This document shows positions 54,441 to 64,000 of a stretch of DNA of 64,000 bases, piece by piece; position 1 is the stretch's first letter; the number at the start of each line of letters is the position of its first letter. The translations under genes were made by a program, and so were the position numbers. The notes under the pieces are model-generated. The model was not told the origin of the DNA, did no database searches, and saw nothing but the letters and a program-made list of their open reading frames with translations. The DNA lies in NCBI GenBank assembly GCA_016285645.1, contig JAEERC010000063.1, positions 1 through 64,000 on the forward strand, read 5' to 3'. Source of the stretch: Clostridiaceae bacterium. GTDB taxonomy: Bacteria; Bacillota; Clostridia; Oscillospirales; Acutalibacteraceae.

Positions 54441-54466
54441 GCCCGTATCGTCTGATACGGGCGTTT
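54441..54466 (+). terminator. GCCCGTATC-family terminator, copy 1
   Basis: GCCCGTATC-GTCT-GATACGGGC-GTTTT. Confidence 0.8.
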
Positions 54467-54730: not shown

Positions 54731-56575
54731 ATGAGATTCTTTAAAAAGAGTTTATCAATCCTGCTTGCTCTGCTGATGCTTACGGGCGCGTTCGCCGCCG
54801 GCGGATATGCTGCTCCGGCAGATGAGGGCGGCTCTTATTCCGCAGGGGCTGTCATTGAATACGGCACCTATCCTCAGAGCAGAGTTGAACAGACGGCTGC
54901 TCTCAGTTCTGCCGCGGAAAACGCGGTCTGGGAGAGCTACGGCTATTACAGCGGCACGGGAGTTTATTATGACGGCAATATGAGCGCCGGCGATTTTGCG
55001 GAATACGCCGATTTCGTTCTTGACGGCGTCAAATACCGCGCCGTGCGTTTCTCCGCCTACCGTCCGTATATGACCGGCTTTGGTAAATTTGAAGTGAATT
55101 CCTATGTTGATGACAACGGCTATGAGCTCAACACAGTTTATTTCTTCAGATTCGATCCCATTCAATGGAAGGTGCTTGACCCCGACGCCGGCCTTGTAGT
55201 CAGCGCGAAACATATTGACAGCCAGGCATTCAACAATTATCTTACGAAATCCGGGTCTGATTTTTACGGCGACAGCGGCTTTGAGAATCTTGCCAACGAT
55301 TATGATACAAGCAGTATAAAAACCTGGCTCAATGCGGATTTTTATAACACCGCGTTTACGAAGGATCAGAAGGAAAATATTGCCCCGGACGGGTCTCTCG
55401 GCAGCGTTTTTCTGTTGTCCAAAGATGAAAACACCAATTACGCTTCTGTATTTTCGGCGCCATCCGGCACGGCATACGCCGAGTGTCAGGGTCTTCATAA
55501 TTACCCAAGCCACGGCGGCGTCTTCCGCTGGACAAGAACTCCCACCGCTGTTTCCGAATTTCCGTATTCCGTTTCCGATGCCGGCGGATTTATCACTGCC
55601 GATTCGGCAAACTATACCTGCATCGGAGTCTGCCCGGCAATGAAACTCAGCACAATCAAAAACGACACAGATGTCTCCTGCGGTACCAATGCCCATATTA
55701 CCGGCGCTTTTACATATTATGACGCGGACAGCCATAAAGCCGTATGCCAAAACTGCGGTGATGTTGTAATTGCTCCTCATACCTGGAACGCACCCGAATG
55801 GAACTGGACCGATCCGGAGAAACCGACATATTCAACATCCTGCCCGGTTTGCGGGGCGGAAAAGAGCGGCAAGGCGGACAATGCCTGGTTCGATCCGCAC
55901 GCCGTTACGCTTGAAAGCGACGCCTATATCGATTATTATGCCGTTGTTACGCTCGGCTCTGAAACCTATGAAGGGTCTTATCACCGTGTGTTTGAGGGCT
56001 CTGTGATTACGGCAAGGAAAATGGCGTTTAATTCATATATAAACGGCAAAAAGCAGGAAGCCGCCGCCCTTGCGCTTGAAACGGACGGTCTGCTCTGCGC
56101 GCAGGCGATTGCGGATGCTCAGGCTCAGCTTGACGCGCTCGAATATAACGAAAATAAATCATATGGGGAAAACATTGCGGCGGCGGACGGAATAATCGCC
56201 GCTCTCGCAAACAGGCTCGCGGAAATACGCGCCGTCAGTCCTGATTTCAGCGATTTCAAAATAAAAGACTATGATTCCACTCTTTCGGTTGATTACAAGT
56301 CAACAGTCATTTTCCACACAACTATGGAAGCGCCCGACGGCTATGAAATTGTGTGGAGCAATGACGCGAAGGGCTCCGAATGCGAGCTGAGCAGTGTAAC
56401 AGAAAAAGAATACAAGATATCTGCAAAGATGGTAAACAAGACCACCGGCGAAACCGAGGCAGTTACCGAAGAAGTAACCGTAAGCGTCAACACCGGCTTC
56501 TTTGCCAGGATAATCGCTTTCTTCAGAGGCCTGTTCAAGTCACTTCCCACATACGAAGATTTTAAAAAGAAATAA
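54731..56575 (+). CDS. Secreted DUF6273-like protein with C-terminal amphipathic tail
   Basis: Signal peptide; IEYGTYPQS, IQWKVLDPDAGLVVSAKHIDSQAFNN, SSIKTWLNADFYNTAFT, VFLLSKDE; tail GFFARIIAFFRGLFKSLP. Confidence 0.85.
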   Translation: MRFFKKSLSILLALLMLTGAFAAGGYAAPADEGGSYSAGAVIEYGTYPQSRVEQTAALSSAAENAVWESYGYYSGTGVYYDGNMSAGDFAEYADFVLDGVKYRAVRFSAYRPYMTGFGKFEVNSYVDDNGYELNTVYFFRFDPIQWKVLDPDAGLVVSAKHIDSQAFNNYLTKSGSDFYGDSGFENLANDYDTSSIKTWLNADFYNTAFTKDQKENIAPDGSLGSVFLLSKDENTNYASVFSAPSGTAYAECQGLHNYPSHGGVFRWTRTPTAVSEFPYSVSDAGGFITADSANYTCIGVCPAMKLSTIKNDTDVSCGTNAHITGAFTYYDADSHKAVCQNCGDVVIAPHTWNAPEWNWTDPEKPTYSTSCPVCGAEKSGKADNAWFDPHAVTLESDAYIDYYAVVTLGSETYEGSYHRVFEGSVITARKMAFNSYINGKKQEAAALALETDGLLCAQAIADAQAQLDALEYNENKSYGENIAAADGIIAALANRLAEIRAVSPDFSDFKIKDYDSTLSVDYKSTVIFHTTMEAPDGYEIVWSNDAKGSECELSSVTEKEYKISAKMVNKTTGETEAVTEEVTVSVNTGFFARIIAFFRGLFKSLPTYEDFKKK

Positions 56576-56590
56576 ACAAAATACTCAAAA

Positions 56591-56617
56591 GCCCGTATCG
56601 TATGATACGGGCTGTTT
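56591..56617 (+). terminator. GCCCGTATC-family terminator, copy 2
   Basis: GCCCGTATC-GTAT-GATACGGGC-TGTTTTTTT. Confidence 0.85.
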
Positions 56618-56857
56618 TTTTGAGATGTAAAGATGCCTGATCTGCGGGAAGCGGGCGTGAAACGGTGTTTTCTGAAGCAAGCGTGCGAAAAAGTACCAAA
56701 AAACGGACAGGGGCGGGCGTATAATCCTTTCAAGGTAATAAGAAAAACAAAATTATAAAAATATATTTTATTTACAAATTAATGAGAAATATAGTATAAT
56801 AAAATATCTATAAAAGTTGTCAAAGCGTTTAACAAAATTGTTCGGAGGAATTGTCAG

Positions 56858-59800
56858 ATGAAAACCGATAAAAGAGTAATATCATTAGTGCTTTGCTTTA
56901 TTATGCTGATTGGCACAGTTGCCATAGGCGGAGACGGGTTTGCTGAATTACTTGATTTGTTAAGCGTAAAAGCGAGTGCAAAGATATATGATATTTACAC
57001 TTACACTGTTAAAGATGGCGAGGTTACCATTACCAGGTGTGATGATAGCGCAAATGGCGTTATAGAGTTACCGAGTGATATAGAAGGACATCCTATTACA
57101 AAGATTGGCGATAGCGCTTTTAGTGGGTGCTCGCTGATTACAAGCATTATTATTCCTAATTCTGTTATGGAACTTGGAGAAATGGTGTTTTATTGCTGCA
57201 CCTCTCTTTCTCAAATATCTCTATCAAATAACATTTACAAAATAAACCACGGAGATTTTTGGGGATGCTCAGGATTTACATCTTATTCCATACCAAATAG
57301 CATTACGATTATTGACGACGATGCTTTCAGAGAGTGCACAGGATTGACAAATATAGAAATACCAAATTCAGTAACGACTATAGGAGAATATGCATTTTGC
57401 GGATGTACTTCATTATCGAGTGTTAGTATCCCCAACAGTATTTCAAGTATAAGTTATGGTGCTTTTGCAGGTTGTGAACAGATTGCAAGCATAACCATAC
57501 CGGATAATATTGAAAGCATATGTGATTATGCATTTTCAAATTGTACAGGTTTATTGAATATCACTATTCCAAATAATGTTACAAGTATAGGTGATTACGC
57601 ATTTGAGGGGTGTACAGAACTTGAGAGTGTATTTTTAGGAAATAAAACAAGCAGCATAGGTGATAACGCATTTTATGGCTGTACGAATTTAACTAGTTTA
57701 AACATTCCTGATAGTGTAACAACGATAGGCAAATATTGCTTTGCGTTTTGTATGTCCGTTGAAAGCGTATTGATTGGGAGCGGCGTTACTAGTATAGGTG
57801 ACTATGCATTTGAAGATTTAAGAGCTCTTACAAATCTGTCTGTAGACAGTAACAACACTGTTTTTCATTCATCCAATAATTGTGTTGTTGAAACAGCAAC
57901 AAAGACACTTGTTATTGGTAGTAATAATAGTGTTATTCCTTCTGACGGTTCTGTAACCAGTATAAGTGCCCGTGCGTTTTTGGGACGCAATAAGCTCACA
58001 AATATATCAATTCCTCGTTTTGTTTCAAGCATAGGGGACAAAGCCTTTTATGGATGTCTCTCTCTTTCAAATATTACAGTTGATAAAAATAACAGTGTTT
58101 TTCATTCTTTTGGAAATTGTATAATAGAAACAGACAGTAAAACTCTAATTTTGGGTTGTAAAAACAGCATTATCCCTTCTGATGGTTCTGTAAAGACAAT
58201 AGGAGACTATTCTTTTTATGTTTGTACTAATCTCAAAAGCATTATTATTCCGAACAGTGTGACCAGAATTGGCAAATATGCTTTTGGAGGCTGCAGTACT
58301 CTTGAAAGTATAAACTTACCAAACTCAGTGACAAAAATAGGTGAAAGGGCATTCGATGGTTGCAGAAAACTTGCTGATGTATACTACACTGGGGCAAGAC
58401 GCGAATGGGAACAAATATCCACAGACCCCTATAATACACCTCTTTTTAATGCAGCTTTACATTTTGTTTCTTCTGTTGATCTGGAAATTGAATCATCAGA
58501 TATTTTCTTTGGAGAAACCGAAACTATTACTGTTGTTCTCCCTGATAATGCCACAGGCACAGTTGAGTTTTACATTGATGCATCAGAAACAGGAGTTACT
58601 GTTTCCGTTATTAATGGGATTGCATTATTTGAAGTAGATAATCTTGCAGTTGACAGCTATACTGTAATTGCGGTTTACTCCGGTGACAGTTGTTATGAGT
58701 CTAAAACGGTTTATACTGAATTCGATGTTAAAACACATTCCGATACCGCAAAGCCGACTTGTGGGTTATCATCTACAAACGATGTTTCCGACACACAAAC
58801 TGCATATCTTTCAATGAGCGATATGGTGGGTTTGGCCGGTTACTACTGGGGAACATCGGCATCGTATCTGGATAACACATTTACTGAAATAAGCGGCACA
58901 AACCAGGTTGTTGAAAAACCCATTTCATCAACAGGAACATATTATTTAACCGTAAAAGACACATTAGACAATATTTCCACAACTGCTTCAATATCTTTTT
59001 ATAAAACAACATTTAACGCAAACGGAGGAACCGTTTCGCAAACAGAAGTCCTCACGAAGGATGGCTATGCTTTCATCCTGCCTGTAGCAAGCAGAACGGG
59101 ATTTACATTTGATAAATGGACCGTAAATGCTGACGGAAGCGGAAAATCCTATAACGCGGGCGATTGCTATGTTGTCAGGTCCGACATTACTGTTTATGCG
59201 AAATGGAATGAATGTCTGCACGATAACAGTGAAAACAAACCCACTTGCACAGAATCTGCAATTTGTTCAATATGTAGTGCCGTGATTCCTGCCACAGGAC
59301 ACAGTTTTACAAACTATATTTCCGGCAACAATGCCACCTGCCTTAAAGACGGCACAAAGACGGCAAAGTGTGATAATTGTGATGAAACAGATACCGTTAC
59401 CGATGAAGGTTCTGCACTCGGTCACGATATCATCCATCACGAAGGCAAAGCGTCAACCTGTAAAGAACACGGTTATGCGGAGTATGACACCTGTTCTCGC
59501 TGTGATTACACTACTTACAGTGAACTGCCGCTTGGGGAACATACTATAAAAATAACCAGAATAAATGAGACCGAAGCAACCTGCACTTCAGGCGGGCACT
59601 ACGATAATTTAGTCGAATGCGGTGTTTGCGGAACTTTTTTGGGCTTTTCTTCTGTGGAGATAGCACCTTTGGATCATAAAGATACCGACAACGACGGTGC
59701 GTGCGATGTGTGCGGAACTATCACAGATGAAGCAAAACACAATAAATACCTTATCGGCAAGGCAAAACTCAAGATTCCTGCAGCAACCGATGTTGAGTAC

Positions 59801-60118
59801 GGCTCAAGCGTAACGGTAATCGCGAAAGCAACCGGAGTTCCGAACGGATACTATGTTGCACTCTATGACGGCGGCACACTGCTTGCGAAAGGTGACAATA
59901 CAGAAGTCAGTTACACATTCCCCAAAGAGTTTACCGCCACTAAAAAGCTTACTGTTAAAATAATTGATTCCAACAAGAATGTTCAGAAAGACAGCAACGG
60001 CAACGACCTGAGCGGTTCGTTTGAACTCAAAGTCAATTCAGGATTCTTTGCGAAATTGATAGCATTCTTCAAGCGATTGTTCAAAGCACTCCCGGCTGTA
60101 ACAGTAGAACCTAAATAA
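56858..60118 (+). CDS. Secreted BspA-like leucine-rich repeat protein with InlB-type repeat, CxxC repeats and C-terminal tail
   Basis: LRR_5-type units (SIGDYAFEGCTELESVFLGN..), FNANGGTVSQ..YAKW, three or more CxxC units, tail GFFAKLIAFFKRLFKALP. Confidence 0.9.
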   Translation: MKTDKRVISLVLCFIMLIGTVAIGGDGFAELLDLLSVKASAKIYDIYTYTVKDGEVTITRCDDSANGVIELPSDIEGHPITKIGDSAFSGCSLITSIIIPNSVMELGEMVFYCCTSLSQISLSNNIYKINHGDFWGCSGFTSYSIPNSITIIDDDAFRECTGLTNIEIPNSVTTIGEYAFCGCTSLSSVSIPNSISSISYGAFAGCEQIASITIPDNIESICDYAFSNCTGLLNITIPNNVTSIGDYAFEGCTELESVFLGNKTSSIGDNAFYGCTNLTSLNIPDSVTTIGKYCFAFCMSVESVLIGSGVTSIGDYAFEDLRALTNLSVDSNNTVFHSSNNCVVETATKTLVIGSNNSVIPSDGSVTSISARAFLGRNKLTNISIPRFVSSIGDKAFYGCLSLSNITVDKNNSVFHSFGNCIIETDSKTLILGCKNSIIPSDGSVKTIGDYSFYVCTNLKSIIIPNSVTRIGKYAFGGCSTLESINLPNSVTKIGERAFDGCRKLADVYYTGARREWEQISTDPYNTPLFNAALHFVSSVDLEIESSDIFFGETETITVVLPDNATGTVEFYIDASETGVTVSVINGIALFEVDNLAVDSYTVIAVYSGDSCYESKTVYTEFDVKTHSDTAKPTCGLSSTNDVSDTQTAYLSMSDMVGLAGYYWGTSASYLDNTFTEISGTNQVVEKPISSTGTYYLTVKDTLDNISTTASISFYKTTFNANGGTVSQTEVLTKDGYAFILPVASRTGFTFDKWTVNADGSGKSYNAGDCYVVRSDITVYAKWNECLHDNSENKPTCTESAICSICSAVIPATGHSFTNYISGNNATCLKDGTKTAKCDNCDETDTVTDEGSALGHDIIHHEGKASTCKEHGYAEYDTCSRCDYTTYSELPLGEHTIKITRINETEATCTSGGHYDNLVECGVCGTFLGFSSVEIAPLDHKDTDNDGACDVCGTITDEAKHNKYLIGKAKLKIPAATDVEYGSSVTVIAKATGVPNGYYVALYDGGTLLAKGDNTEVSYTFPKEFTATKKLTVKIIDSNKNVQKDSNGNDLSGSFELKVNSGFFAKLIAFFKRLFKALPAVTVEPK
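57060..58430 (+). repeat. BspA-type LRR array
   Basis: About 23-aa units xIPNSVTxIGxYAFxGCTxLxSI; two insert units NN[ST]VFHSxxNC[IV][IV]ET..KTL[IV][LI]GxxNS[IV]IPSDGSV. Confidence 0.85.
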
Positions 60119-60126
60119 TTACAAAT

Positions 60127-60158
60127 GCCCGTATCATCACGATACGGGCTTTCTTTTT
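60127..60158 (+). terminator. GCCCGTATC-family terminator, copy 3
   Basis: GCCCGTATC-ATCAC-GATACGGGC-TTTCTTTTTCTT. Confidence 0.85.
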
Positions 60159-60342
60159 CTTACGATAGTCTTAGAATTCTGTGCCGTCCGCATAATTATC
60201 GAGTCAACTCATCGCCTGACCTTATCGAACTGGCACAAACAATAAAAAATATATTTTCTTTATTATTGTTTATAACAGTTATTTATGGTATAATAATACT
60301 ATTAAGCAACACTCATCAAACAAATTGACGGGGGTATGGTTT

Positions 60343-63300
60343 ATGAAAACTTTCAAAAAGATGCTGGCTGTTCTGCTGTGTGTCATTATGGCATTCGGCT
60401 CTGTTGCCATCGGCGGTGAGGGATTTGCTCAGCTGCTTGACACTTTCAGTGTCAAGGCATCTGCGGAAAACTATATTGAAGAGCAGTATGTTTTAACCGC
60501 AAAATGTGAGGTCAAGAGTGAATTGGTTTTTAATTACGAATCAAATCAATGGTGGGATCTCGTAACAAAAAGGCAACCGTATTATCATGTCAAGCTTTAC
60601 GCCTGGCTGGAAGGATTGCCTTCTGATTTGAATTTAGCCGAGGTTACCTCTGTCAGTTGGTTTTATTCACGCACTACAGGCGGCAGTTTTATGTTGGGGA
60701 ATGCCGGTACCGACAGTTTTGAAGTCTATTCTTCCGAACAGGGCTTAGTTGTTTTGGCTTCAACATTTGAACTCGGATCTACGGGAGGCAGCGGTAAATA
60801 TATTGACGGCGTCGGCTACTGCATAAATTATGATGATATTGAAAACTGGCAAGGCACTTTTTATGCAAGGATTACGGTCTGTAACACCGGATACGATGTT
60901 CTTGACGGTTTGGTATGCTTATCAAACAAAGTCAGGGCTCAGATTGACCTGTTAACCATCTATGCGCGCTGCGACCGTGTCAAAGGAACAGAAATAATTA
61001 ACGACGCAGGTCAGAGAATGCTTCGTGAAAAACGGCCGGACGATGTTACGGATGATCCTTTTAGTTTTTACCTGCCTGCAGGAGAATCGGGAACCGACTG
61101 GTTCTATACAGTAAAATATTTCACCGATCCGGAAAGAACCAACGCAAACAGAACTGTTATTCCCGTAGATAATCTCTGGCATTACCGGGGCTTTGGCGGA
61201 GTTGCCTATGAGATAAAGGATGCAAATGACACTCACTATAAATACTCCGACTATGTTAAAGAGGGCGAGGACGACGGCTGCCTCAGCGGAAAAGATGGCA
61301 GTGAGGTTTTCGCATGGAATTACGGCGTAAACGGCAGGGGCTACAACTACATAACCTACATAAACAGCGACGGGAATCGCGATGTTATTCGCTGCGGCAC
61401 ACCGAATTGGGACACAGAAGAGAACGGAATCACACACTATCGTTTGATTGAATTCATTACAAGGCAATTCACACTTGAAAAATTGGAACCTTCTGAACAG
61501 TTCGGAGCGCCGGTAGCAATATTATTACAAAGAGTTTGTAACGTAGGCGACATAATTGAATACGGAAATTATCCGCAGAGTCAAGTTACGGATGAAGCAA
61601 CTTTGACCGAGTTGAATTCATTGCTTAGTGATAATAGTTGGAATAGTTATAATTATTATTATACCACAGATCATGTGGCTTTGGGGAATTGGACAATTTC
61701 AGACTATATGCGATATGCTGATGTCGAACTCGACGGTTATAAATATCGAGCTGTAGTTATGGATAAGTTCAGACCTTATTATACAAACGCAACCACTTAT
61801 GATGGGTTTTATCAAAACTCATATGGCTTTGATATTAACCAAGTTTATTGGTTTAAATATGAGCCTGTTAAATGGAGAGTCCTCGATCCAACAATCGGTT
61901 TGGTAATATGTAACACTATTTTAGACAGTCAGCCTTTTAATAACTATTGCATAAAAAATAACGACGAGTGGTATGGCGATGCTGAACAATCATTTTATGC
62001 AAACAATTATGAAAAAAGCAGTATAAGAAAGTGGCTGAATAATACATTCTTTAATACTATTTTTAATCAGGAACAAGCAGCTAATATATCTTCTGTTGAC
62101 TGTTTAGGCGATAGTGTTATAAAAGTTGATTCACTTGAGTCTCAAGTTTTGTATGATAAGGTATTTCTGCTTTCAAAAAATGAAACTATAAACAGTGATT
62201 ACGGATTTGATCCCGACCGCGATGTGGAAGATTTAAACCGCCAACCCAAAGGCAGTGATTATTCCAGATGTCAAGGACTGCGTTGCGTTACTGACGGTAG
62301 AGTTTCTTCCGAAGGAGGCTCTCCTTGGTATTTAAGAACAAAAAGTAATAGTAGTACAAATCAAGTTTACGTAGTTGATGAAATAGGAAGAATTAACAGA
62401 ACGGAGTTTTGTTATAATACATTTAACGGAATATGTCCCGCAATGTGTCTGTCTCAATTAAAAAGTGACACTACTCTTTTTGCTGCAGACACTTACACGG
62501 TTACATATATTATTGACGGCGAAATCTTCACCACACAAGAGCACGAATTCGGAGAAGCAATAACCGCTCCGGAAGCACCCGAAAGAAATGGTTATACTTT
62601 CAGTTGGGGTGAGATTCCCGCAACAATGCCCGCTGAGGATGTTACTGTTATCGGAACATATACCGAAATAAGCACAGGATACAAAGTCGGAGACATAATA
62701 GAATTTGGTTACTATCCTCAATCTTTGGTAACAGACCCCGAACTCTTAGAGCAACTAAATAATATTTTTAATAACAACACTTCCATTACTTGGAAATCGT
62801 ATAAGTATTTTTCTGGAACCGGTGAATATGACGGCAAAATGGAGTCGAGCAACTATATGAGATATATTGACCGGACAATTTCGGGAGAAAAATATCGTGC
62901 AGTTAATTTCTATTATTACCGCCCGGTTTCAACCAGTATGGATGCAAGCAAAGCAAATGCCGATAACTCAAATCAGCCAATCAATGGCTATAATGGCTAT
63001 CAAACATATTGGTTTAAATATGAACCTTTAAAATGGCGGGTTCTTGACCCCGATACAGGCCTTGTCGTTTGTGAGAGCATTGTTGATTCACAGGCATTTC
63101 ACAATTGGATTGAGTTCATGGATTACAACTTCAATGGAATTCAGGATGATAATGAGTTCTATGGTGATGGCGCTCATTCTGTTGATTGTTACCCAAATAA
63201 CTATAATAACTGTTCTCTTAAAAATTGGTTAAATGACAATTTTATTAATTTAGCTTTTACCGATGAGCAGAAGTCGTTGCTTTTAAATAACGGATATAAG

Positions 63301-64000
63301 GGGAAAGTGTTCCTTCTTTCAAAAACAGATGTTGTAAACAGTTCGTATGGTTTCTCTTCATCTGTTTCAGAAGATTCATTGCGCAGAGCATGTGGAACAG
63401 ATTATGCAAAATGCCAGGGTTTGTTGGTTAATAATAACGAAGATGAAGAATCGTACGGATATTCGGAATGGCGTCTTAGAGATGCAGGCAATGCAAATGT
63501 ATATATGGAAGCGTATCAGGTTAATGCGTCCGGCGCAGTCACAATTAGTCGCGATGTTGATAGAACAGATAAAGGCATTAGACCAGCTATTATTCTTTCA
63601 TCAATTGTAGATGGTCCTAAATATACCATTACATATGTTGTTGATAATGAAATATTAACAACACAAGAGCATGCATTTGGCGAAACAATAACTGCGCCTG
63701 AAGTTGATGAAAGGGAAGGGTACTCTTTCAATTGGAATGATCTTCCCGAAACTATGCCGGCCAATGATATCACAGTTTACGGAGAATACAAATCTATTTA
63801 TGCCGAATACACTACAGAGACAAGAGTCGAAAACCTTGACGGGACTTATGAAATAACCATCGAGACTCATGAAGAGGTCATTGGCACTTTGGTTGAAGCA
63901 ACCAGTTCTCAAAAAACGAGAACCGGCTTCAAACTGGATGAAAATGTTTCTGTTCTTGAAACAACGGTTACCGAAGACGGCAATGCAAAACTCATAATTG
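60343..64000 (+). CDS. Secreted tandem DUF6273-like protein with InlB-like linkers, truncated by window end
   Basis: Manual translation from ATG 60343: MKTFKKMLAVLLCVIMAFGSVAIGGEGFAQLLDTFSVKASAENYI..; no in-frame stop found to the window end. Two DUF6273-like units (about 61550-62460 and 62690-63610), each followed by a YTxTYxxDxEIxTTQEHxFGExITAPE linker. Confidence 0.85.
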   Translation, partial: MKTFKKMLAVLLCVIMAFGSVAIGGEGFAQLLDTFSVKASAENYIEEQYVLTAKCEVKSELVFNYESNQWWDLVTKRQPYYHVKLYAWLEGLPSDLNLAEVTSVSWFYSRTTGGSFMLGNAGTDSFEVYSSEQGLVVLASTFELGSTGGSGKYIDGVGYCINYDDIENWQGTFYARITVCNTGYDVLDGLVCLSNKVRAQIDLLTIYARCDRVKGTEIINDAGQRMLREKRPDDVTDDPFSFYLPAGESGTDWFYTVKYFTDPERTNANRTVIPVDNLWHYRGFGGVAYEIKDANDTHYKYSDYVKEGEDDGCLSGKDGSEVFAWNYGVNGRGYNYITYINSDGNRDVIRCGTPNWDTEENGITHYRLIEFITRQFTLEKLEPSEQFGAPVAILLQRVCNVGDIIEYGNYPQSQVTDEATLTELNSLLSDNSWNSYNYYYTTDHVALGNWTISDYMRYADVELDGYKYRAVVMDKFRPYYTNATTYDGFYQNSYGFDINQVYWFKYEPVKWRVLDPTIGLVICNTILDSQPFNNYCIKNNDEWYGDAEQSFYANNYEKSSIRKWLNNTFFNTIFNQEQAANISSVDCLGDSVIKVDSLESQVLYDKVFLLSKNETINSDYGFDPDRDVEDLNRQPKGSDYSRCQGLRCVTDGRVSSEGGSPWYLRTKSNSSTNQVYVVDEIGRINRTEFCYNTFNGICPAMCLSQLKSDTTLFAADTYTVTYIIDGEIFTTQEHEFGEAITAPEAPERNGYTFSWGEIPATMPAEDVTVIGTYTEISTGYKVGDIIEFGYYPQSLVTDPELLEQLNNIFNNNTSITWKSYKYFSGTGEYDGKMESSNYMRYIDRTISGEKYRAVNFYYYRPVSTSMDASKANADNSNQPINGYNGYQTYWFKYEPLKWRVLDPDTGLVVCESIVDSQAFHNWIEFMDYNFNGIQDDNEFYGDGAHSVDCYPNNYNNCSLKNWLNDNFINLAFTDEQKSLLLNNGYKGKVFLLSKTDVVNSSYGFSSSVSEDSLRRACGTDYAKCQGLLVNNNEDEESYGYSEWRLRDAGNANVYMEAYQVNASGAVTISRDVDRTDKGIRPAIILSSIVDGPKYTITYVVDNEILTTQEHAFGETITAPEVDEREGYSFNWNDLPETMPANDITVYGEYKSIYAEYTTETRVENLDGTYEITIETHEEVIGTLVEATSSQKTRTGFKLDENVSVLETTVTEDGNAKLII

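Follow-up and report, generated by a model that had tools for sequence, protein, structure and literature searches.

LPxTG proteins, the substrates of sortases, are paired with a recognisable signal-peptide subtype, such as YSIRK. In the PEP-CTERM, GlyGly-CTERM and MYXO-CTERM systems, short C-terminal homology domains are found on dozens of unrelated exported proteins per genome (PMC1569441, PMC3237569, PMC11980579). In E. coli PBP5 (DacA), which has a proven anchor helix, removal of the last 18 residues abolishes both membrane tethering and localisation (PMC2909392). Here we describe a C-terminal module that can be compared with each of these and that was met in a tandem array of secreted repeat proteins in a Clostridiaceae bacterium (GenBank GCA_016285645.1; genome of 2.63 Mb in 73 contigs, 97.9% complete). 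The array lies at the right end of the window, by which we mean the whole 64,000-base stretch analysed, bases 1-64000 of the 122,668-base contig C5. We consider, with a probability of roughly 0.55, that the shared C-terminus is a portable, sortase-independent surface-retention module of herbivore-gut Clostridia of the Oscillospirales type.

With LPxTG proteins the system shares a portable C-terminal signal, diverse middles and pairing with a recognisable signal-peptide subtype, but its tail is without LPxTG, a transmembrane segment or a basic end. As in the CTERM systems, a short C-terminal homology domain is found on dozens of unrelated exported proteins in one genome; here, in contrast, the helix is amphipathic and not transmembrane, an immunoglobulin-like (Ig-like) domain stands in front of it, the hosts are Clostridia and no partner protease is known. 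PBP5 is likewise exported by a cleaved signal peptide and likewise has, at the extreme C-terminus and after a beta-sandwich domain, an amphipathic helix too polar for a transmembrane segment, with an FFxKII start and equal hydrophobicity and hydrophobic moment (the E. coli DacA C-terminus, NC_000913, has hydrophobicity 0.87, moment 0.61 and z 3.04). Only one enzyme family carries the helix there, whereas about forty unrelated exported proteins do here, and the DacA of the organism itself ends in an apparent transmembrane segment and not in an amphipathic helix. In tentaclins, Ig domains follow DUF6273, which there is a C-type-lectin-like domain (PMC10743442). The DUF6273 middles of the array recall tentaclins and its LRR_5 middle recalls BspA proteins, but the present genome yielded no diversity-generating retroelement and the end module is not described in tentaclins as an Ig domain plus helix. 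An open-access search for literature on C-terminal amphipathic anchors of Gram-positive surface proteins returned nothing relevant.

The array and its C-terminal module

The three coding sequences (CDSs) of the array, both blocks that they share and their DUF6273 cores, all reported in the original prediction, were found in place. Coordinates are those of the window, which are also those of contig C5:

54731..56575, + strand: CDS 54731 (614 aa), with signal peptide, DUF6273 (PF19789) and a C-terminal module of Ig-like domain plus amphipathic helix
56246..56572, + strand: C-terminal module of CDS 54731 (Ig-like domain and tail), profile match 104 bits
56495..56548, + strand: terminal amphipathic helix of CDS 54731, GFFARIIAFFRGLFKSLP
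56858..60118, + strand: CDS 56858 (1086 aa), with long-c-region signal peptide, BspA-type LRR_5, Big_3_5, InlB-type repeat and C-terminal module
56858..56980, + strand: signal peptide of CDS 56858, MKTDKRVISLVLCFIMLIGTVAIGGDGFAELLDLLSVKASA, whose end and c-region form the shared N-terminal block
59762..60115, + strand: C-terminal module of CDS 56858, modelled as an Ig-like sandwich, a helix at 95-106 and a short strand at 112-115 (predicted local distance difference test score, pLDDT, 95.8)
60041..60094, + strand: terminal amphipathic helix of CDS 56858, GFFAKLIAFFKRLFKALP
60343..64000, + strand: CDS 60343, first 1219 aa; the window edge cuts the gene, which continues to contig position 69702
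60343..60465, + strand: signal peptide of CDS 60343, MKTFKKMLAVLLCVIMAFGSVAIGGEGFAQLLDTFSVKASA
61978..62454, + strand: best-scoring DUF6273 copy of CDS 60343 (Pfam scan)

Beyond position 64000, and as had been predicted, CDS 60343 closes with the module and tail of the other two, SGFFAKLIAFFKRLFKALPAVTVEPK standing directly before the stop codon at 69702, and its last 26 residues are identical to those of CDS 56858. It therefore carries both shared ends, the signal-peptide block and the C-terminal tail, whereas CDS 54731 carries the tail and lacks the block. The middle of CDS 60343 holds DUF6273 and InlB-type repeats, and the LRR_5 repeats of CDS 56858, which are of the BspA type, score 342 bits (both by Pfam scan). 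At least four further tail proteins are encoded downstream on the contig, at 69869, 78057-79745 (−), 80617-86085 (−) and 89728-91587 (+), and the gene at 69869 is a fourth of the same build as the three in the window.

Alignment of 23 C-termini defined a module of about 115 positions, in which about 90 Ig-like residues are followed by xGFFxxLIAFFKxLFxxLP. The shared tail first proposed is thus real, but the candidate anchor is the Ig domain together with the helix and not the 18-residue tail alone. In the organism's own genome the module profile yields about 41 matches at E ≤ 1e-10, on 39 distinct open reading frames (ORFs) after duplicates and one weak fragment are dropped, and the copies are spread across at least 20 contigs; a profile of the 19-residue tail alone yields 25 genome matches at E < 1e-4, every one of them in a module protein. 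The module has no entry in Pfam or NCBIfam and is undescribed there: by curated cut-offs Pfam had no model for any of four modules scanned and NCBIfam had none for two modules and two signal peptides, and 71 aligned modules drew only weak, scattered NCBIfam matches (best E 0.0018), which we take to reflect composition. AlphaFold2 run on the 71 sequences placed strands at 2-91, ahead of the helix and short strand listed above. A Foldseek search with this model found nothing at E ≤ 0.001, the best hits being generic beta-sandwiches, and a sequence search against solved structures gave no match for the tail and only generic Ig-fold matches for the module.

The view that invariant ends enclose variable middles is upheld, since the module caps many unlike proteins. 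Their middles comprise LRR_5, DUF6273, InlB-type and GLUG repeats, papain-lectin, CHAP with GBS_Bsp repeats, and VWA, FG-GAP, fn3, Big_2, Big_3, collagen-like and ubiquitin domains. Several are plausible ligand binders because DUF6273 resembles the C-type lectin of tentaclins, and the presence of the module on one CHAP cell-wall hydrolase and two papain-lectin proteases fits a cell-wall location. The ubiquitin domains (PF00240, 103-104 bits) belong to two exported proteins, C63:64909-69978 and C73:13572-17036, whose modules are of the terminal-cysteine type described below; they are near-eukaryotic in sequence, stand directly after the signal peptide without a terminal RGG and are followed by GLUG repeats.

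Module proteins are almost without exception proteins with signal peptides, as had been anticipated. Among the 34 own-genome module ORFs with an intact 5' end, 33 have a signal peptide, 32 recognised by rule and one by eye (C24:30884, starting MFKKILSLTLALVISLGSFSAG); the sole ORF without one, C22:62941, seems to miss its 5' part. The rule is permissive, because it also scores 111 of the 235 other ORFs of the examined stretches as signal-like. Relatives from other genomes gave a similar picture (50/56 signal-like among those that are closed at the 5' end and no shorter than 300 aa). The N-terminal block of CDS 56858 and CDS 60343, TVAIGGDGFAELLDLLSVKASA in one protein and SVAIGGEGFAQLLDTFSVKASA in the other, is indeed shared, but it does not follow the signal peptide as a module of the mature protein: it is part of the signal peptide, consisting of the end of the hydrophobic core and an unusually long and conserved c-region closed by an AxA cleavage site, predicted at ASA. 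In the genome the block occurs in nine strong copies (E ≤ 3.5e-7), all nine on proteins with the C-terminal module, and the pairing is seen again in other genomes (L169, L182, L189, L196 and L199). The block thus predicts the module but is dispensable, because many other module proteins carry ordinary, different signal peptides.

A GTDB-type genome scan with the tail pattern found 113 relatives, and the figures for relatives given here cover the best 80 (L169-L248). They come from 32 assemblies, all of uncultured Clostridia, Ruminococcaceae or Oscillospiraceae, so that a wider family does exist; the named sources are goat, sheep, horse, water buffalo, yak, reindeer and roe deer gut. The tail ends 0-15 residues before the stop in 80 of 80, its presence but not its position being built into the scan pattern. 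Matches at E ≤ 0.001 were obtained in 17 of 200 genomes of the same family, strong ones in a handful, and matches at E ≤ 1e-5 in 2 of 295 genomes of the same order. These counts, taken with the number of assemblies, indicate that the module is lineage-restricted yet occurs in several genera. Judged by its named relatives, the bacterium studied here is probably itself an uncultured Oscillospirales-type inhabitant of a herbivore gut.

Evidence for surface retention

The tail is an amphipathic helix rather than a membrane-spanning one. Over 83 distinct 16-residue tails the mean hydrophobic moment is 0.67 at 100 degrees, compared with 0.12 at 80 and 0.15 at 120, with a hydrophobicity of 0.88, a net charge of +2.4 and z of 3.05 versus shuffles. 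Positions 1, 2, 5, 6, 8, 9, 12 and 13 are hydrophobic in all of them and 99% have K or R at position 10; only 7 of 94 tails exceed the transmembrane hydropathy cut-off.

None of the established anchors accompanies it. An LPxTG-like motif is present in 0 of the 39 module proteins, Pfam scans of the own-genome module proteins revealed no SLH, CWB2 or C-terminal dockerin domain, and the tails do not have the layout of sortase substrates, a C-terminal transmembrane segment followed by a basic tail. No lipobox was found at the end of the signal peptide in the 39 proteins, the two pattern matches both lying elsewhere. The suggested tie to a sortase must therefore be rejected although the genome encodes four sortases, two of which have LPxTG-type proteins as neighbours. 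At C21:44022-45971 two sortases stand beside pilin-like proteins ending in LPQTG and LPSTG, and sortase anchoring thus coexists with the tail route. With no LPxTG and no other anchor on the module proteins, and four sortases retained, the tail route would run parallel to the sortase route.

If the module is an attachment device, then homologues elsewhere should have another device in the same place. The papain-lectin core of C66:47533-49500 was searched in 200 genomes of the family, and the C-termini of ten homologues from other genera were compared with Pfam; seven of the ten have dockerin type I and one has three CWB2 repeats, proportions that are not a survey since the ten were picked for dockerin- or CWB2-like ends. 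Other papain-lectin homologues (L316, L318 and L327) carry an FF-rich helix at the end but no Ig domain. The folds and ligands of CWB2 and dockerin are unrelated to those of the module, but in homologous papain-lectin proteins they take the same C-terminal slot, and the module would therefore occupy an attachment slot. This replacement appears to be the strongest functional argument for an attachment role, though an indirect one.

The common anchoring route that the original prediction proposed for the array proteins is supported by these data, and it might operate as follows. The proteins would leave the cell by Sec export, directed by a cleavable signal peptide of the ordinary kind; the form with the conserved long c-region would be one version of it. 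The middles would serve as exchangeable binding or enzymatic domains and the Ig-like domain as a stalk or spacer, while the amphipathic, net-positive helix of 16-18 residues would be embedded, probably as a monotopic element, in the outer leaflet of the cytoplasmic membrane, holding the protein on the cell with no need for a sortase, lipidation or a membrane-spanning segment. Binding of the helix to the membrane, and not to a wall polymer or a partner protein, is our inference. Little is known about how large adhesins that lack LPxTG are held on the cells of gut Clostridia, and the module offers a testable sortase-independent answer as well as a sequence tag for the surface proteome of an uncultured, largely herbivore-gut lineage. 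Such a tag would link DUF6273, LRR, GLUG, protease and ubiquitin-bearing proteins that are now annotated as unrelated orphans, and the module profile is ready for annotation pipelines.

Four points weigh against surface retention by a membrane helix. First, homology to PBP5 is not supported: the tail profile scores 0.2 bits against the DacA C-terminus, so that the claim is one of a helix working like the PBP5 anchor and not of a relative of it. Second, in the confident AlphaFold model the helix is flanked by the sandwich on one side and a short last strand on the other, so that its hydrophobic face may be buried on the Ig domain. Third, the module is not always terminal, since about 290 residues come after it in CDS 69869 (C5:69854-74866), where the internal module and tail are followed by an InlB-type repeat and another domain. 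The latter domain is common to C5:105754-106542 and ends there in another FF-rich helix; two tail genes seem to have been fused in CDS 69869, which would be evidence of module shuffling. Finally, a membrane helix leaves an adhesin with a thick wall to cross, which proteins of 500-3000 aa could do.

Alternative explanations

The module might instead be a sorting signal for a dedicated partner (a protease, ligase or receptor) in the style of PEP-CTERM and GlyGly-CTERM, the c-region of the signal peptide being the second half of the signal and a cysteine subclass a second address. We think this rather unlikely, although two observations speak for it. One is the pairing already described, with all nine strong copies of the block on module proteins and the same pairing in other genomes. 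The other is a second tail type: ten own-genome proteins have the same Ig domain and a longer helix with cysteine as the last residue in 10 of 10 (contigs C13, C17, C25, C30, C32, C54, C60 (two), C63 and C73), with ends such as GFFDRLKAFFAELIEKILGKAIAELLTSIC, FTKIC, IIKAC and GSVC directly before the stop. In a genome of the same genus, G145, the four full matches (L276, L286, L290 and L294) all end in cysteine, and the genomes searched contained no cysteine tail outside the genus. The moment of these helices is 0.57-0.73 over the first 16 residues but 0.25-0.43 over the full helix. A membrane-embedded C-terminal thiol would be odd, and our guesses are lipid, disulfide or covalent wall attachment. 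Against a sorting signal, the tail does not have the transmembrane-plus-basic-cluster layout of the known CTERM signals, the signal peptides of many module proteins are of another kind, and a partner gene was neither found nor excluded. In its fullest form the idea becomes a two-ended address, in which the c-region (GGxGFAxLLDxxSVKASA) and the Ig-plus-helix C-terminus route about forty proteins to the surface via a putative dedicated partner and the terminal cysteine of the genus-restricted second address may be where a covalent attachment is made; we regard this version as doubtful.

It is distinctly improbable that the helix belongs structurally to the Ig-like domain, packed on the sandwich, and that the module serves as a stalk or for multimerisation and has no anchoring role. 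The high-confidence single-domain model with its short strand after the helix speaks for such packing. Yet secreted proteins that have no Ig domain also carry related FF-rich terminal helices (C54:30265, C5:105754 and the three papain-lectin homologues named above), attachment domains fill the same slot in homologues, and a hydrophobic face made up of F, F, L, I, F, F, L and F seems excessive for packing on a 90-aa domain.

Very little probability attaches to the proposal that the helix, which is strongly amphipathic and net positive, binds outside the cell to host membranes, plant surface lipids or neighbouring bacteria in the manner of phenol-soluble modulins (PSMs) or antimicrobial peptides. 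Sixteen of 71 modules do match the epsilon-PSM model (best E 0.016), but below threshold and as expected from composition. That a cell-wall hydrolase shares the tail with LRR, GLUG and DUF6273 proteins also points to a role on the cell side that all of them have in common.

Recent tandem duplication as the sole source of shared ends with no function of their own, which four tandem genes and three terminators of one stem might suggest and which may explain the tandem order, is refuted for the module itself: the signal-peptide DNA is only about 60% identical, copies occur on many contigs and in 32 other assemblies, and across 26 own-genome tails the proportion of synonymous differences is 0.83 while that of nonsynonymous differences is 0.23, so that silent sites are near saturation, the helix is conserved and recent duplication is not the cause of the likeness of the tails. 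Purifying selection acts on the helix.

Transcription units and neighbouring genes

The terminators said to be shared by the array genes were confirmed. Within the window the stem GCCCGTATC and GATACGGGC occurs at 54441, 56591 and 60127 only (expected 0.00):

54441..54462, + strand: terminator stem GCCCGTATC-GTCT-GATACGGGC upstream of the array, ending the preceding gene
56590..56613, + strand: terminator of the same stem 3' of CDS 54731 (stem at 56591)
60127..60149, + strand: terminator of the same stem 3' of CDS 56858

Another type of stem, CCGCCCGG, lies 3' of CDS 60343 and of CDS 69869, and promoter-like sites are found upstream of CDS 56858 and of CDS 60343. Since each gene has a terminator of its own, a single operon was rejected in favour of a tandem of separate units, and judging from these signals each array gene is probably its own transcription unit.

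Diversification of DUF6273 by a diversity-generating retroelement was also considered and rejected, as no template/variable repeat pair was found between the surroundings of the reverse transcriptase and the examined own-genome stretches. The only reverse transcriptase in the genome (C11:10599-11531; L336:7600-8532, − strand; 311 aa) is probably retron-like. Amid the tail genes downstream of the window, at C5:75586-77628 (−), lies a pair of genes encoding a sensor-kinase-like and a response-regulator-like protein, a possible regulator of the array.

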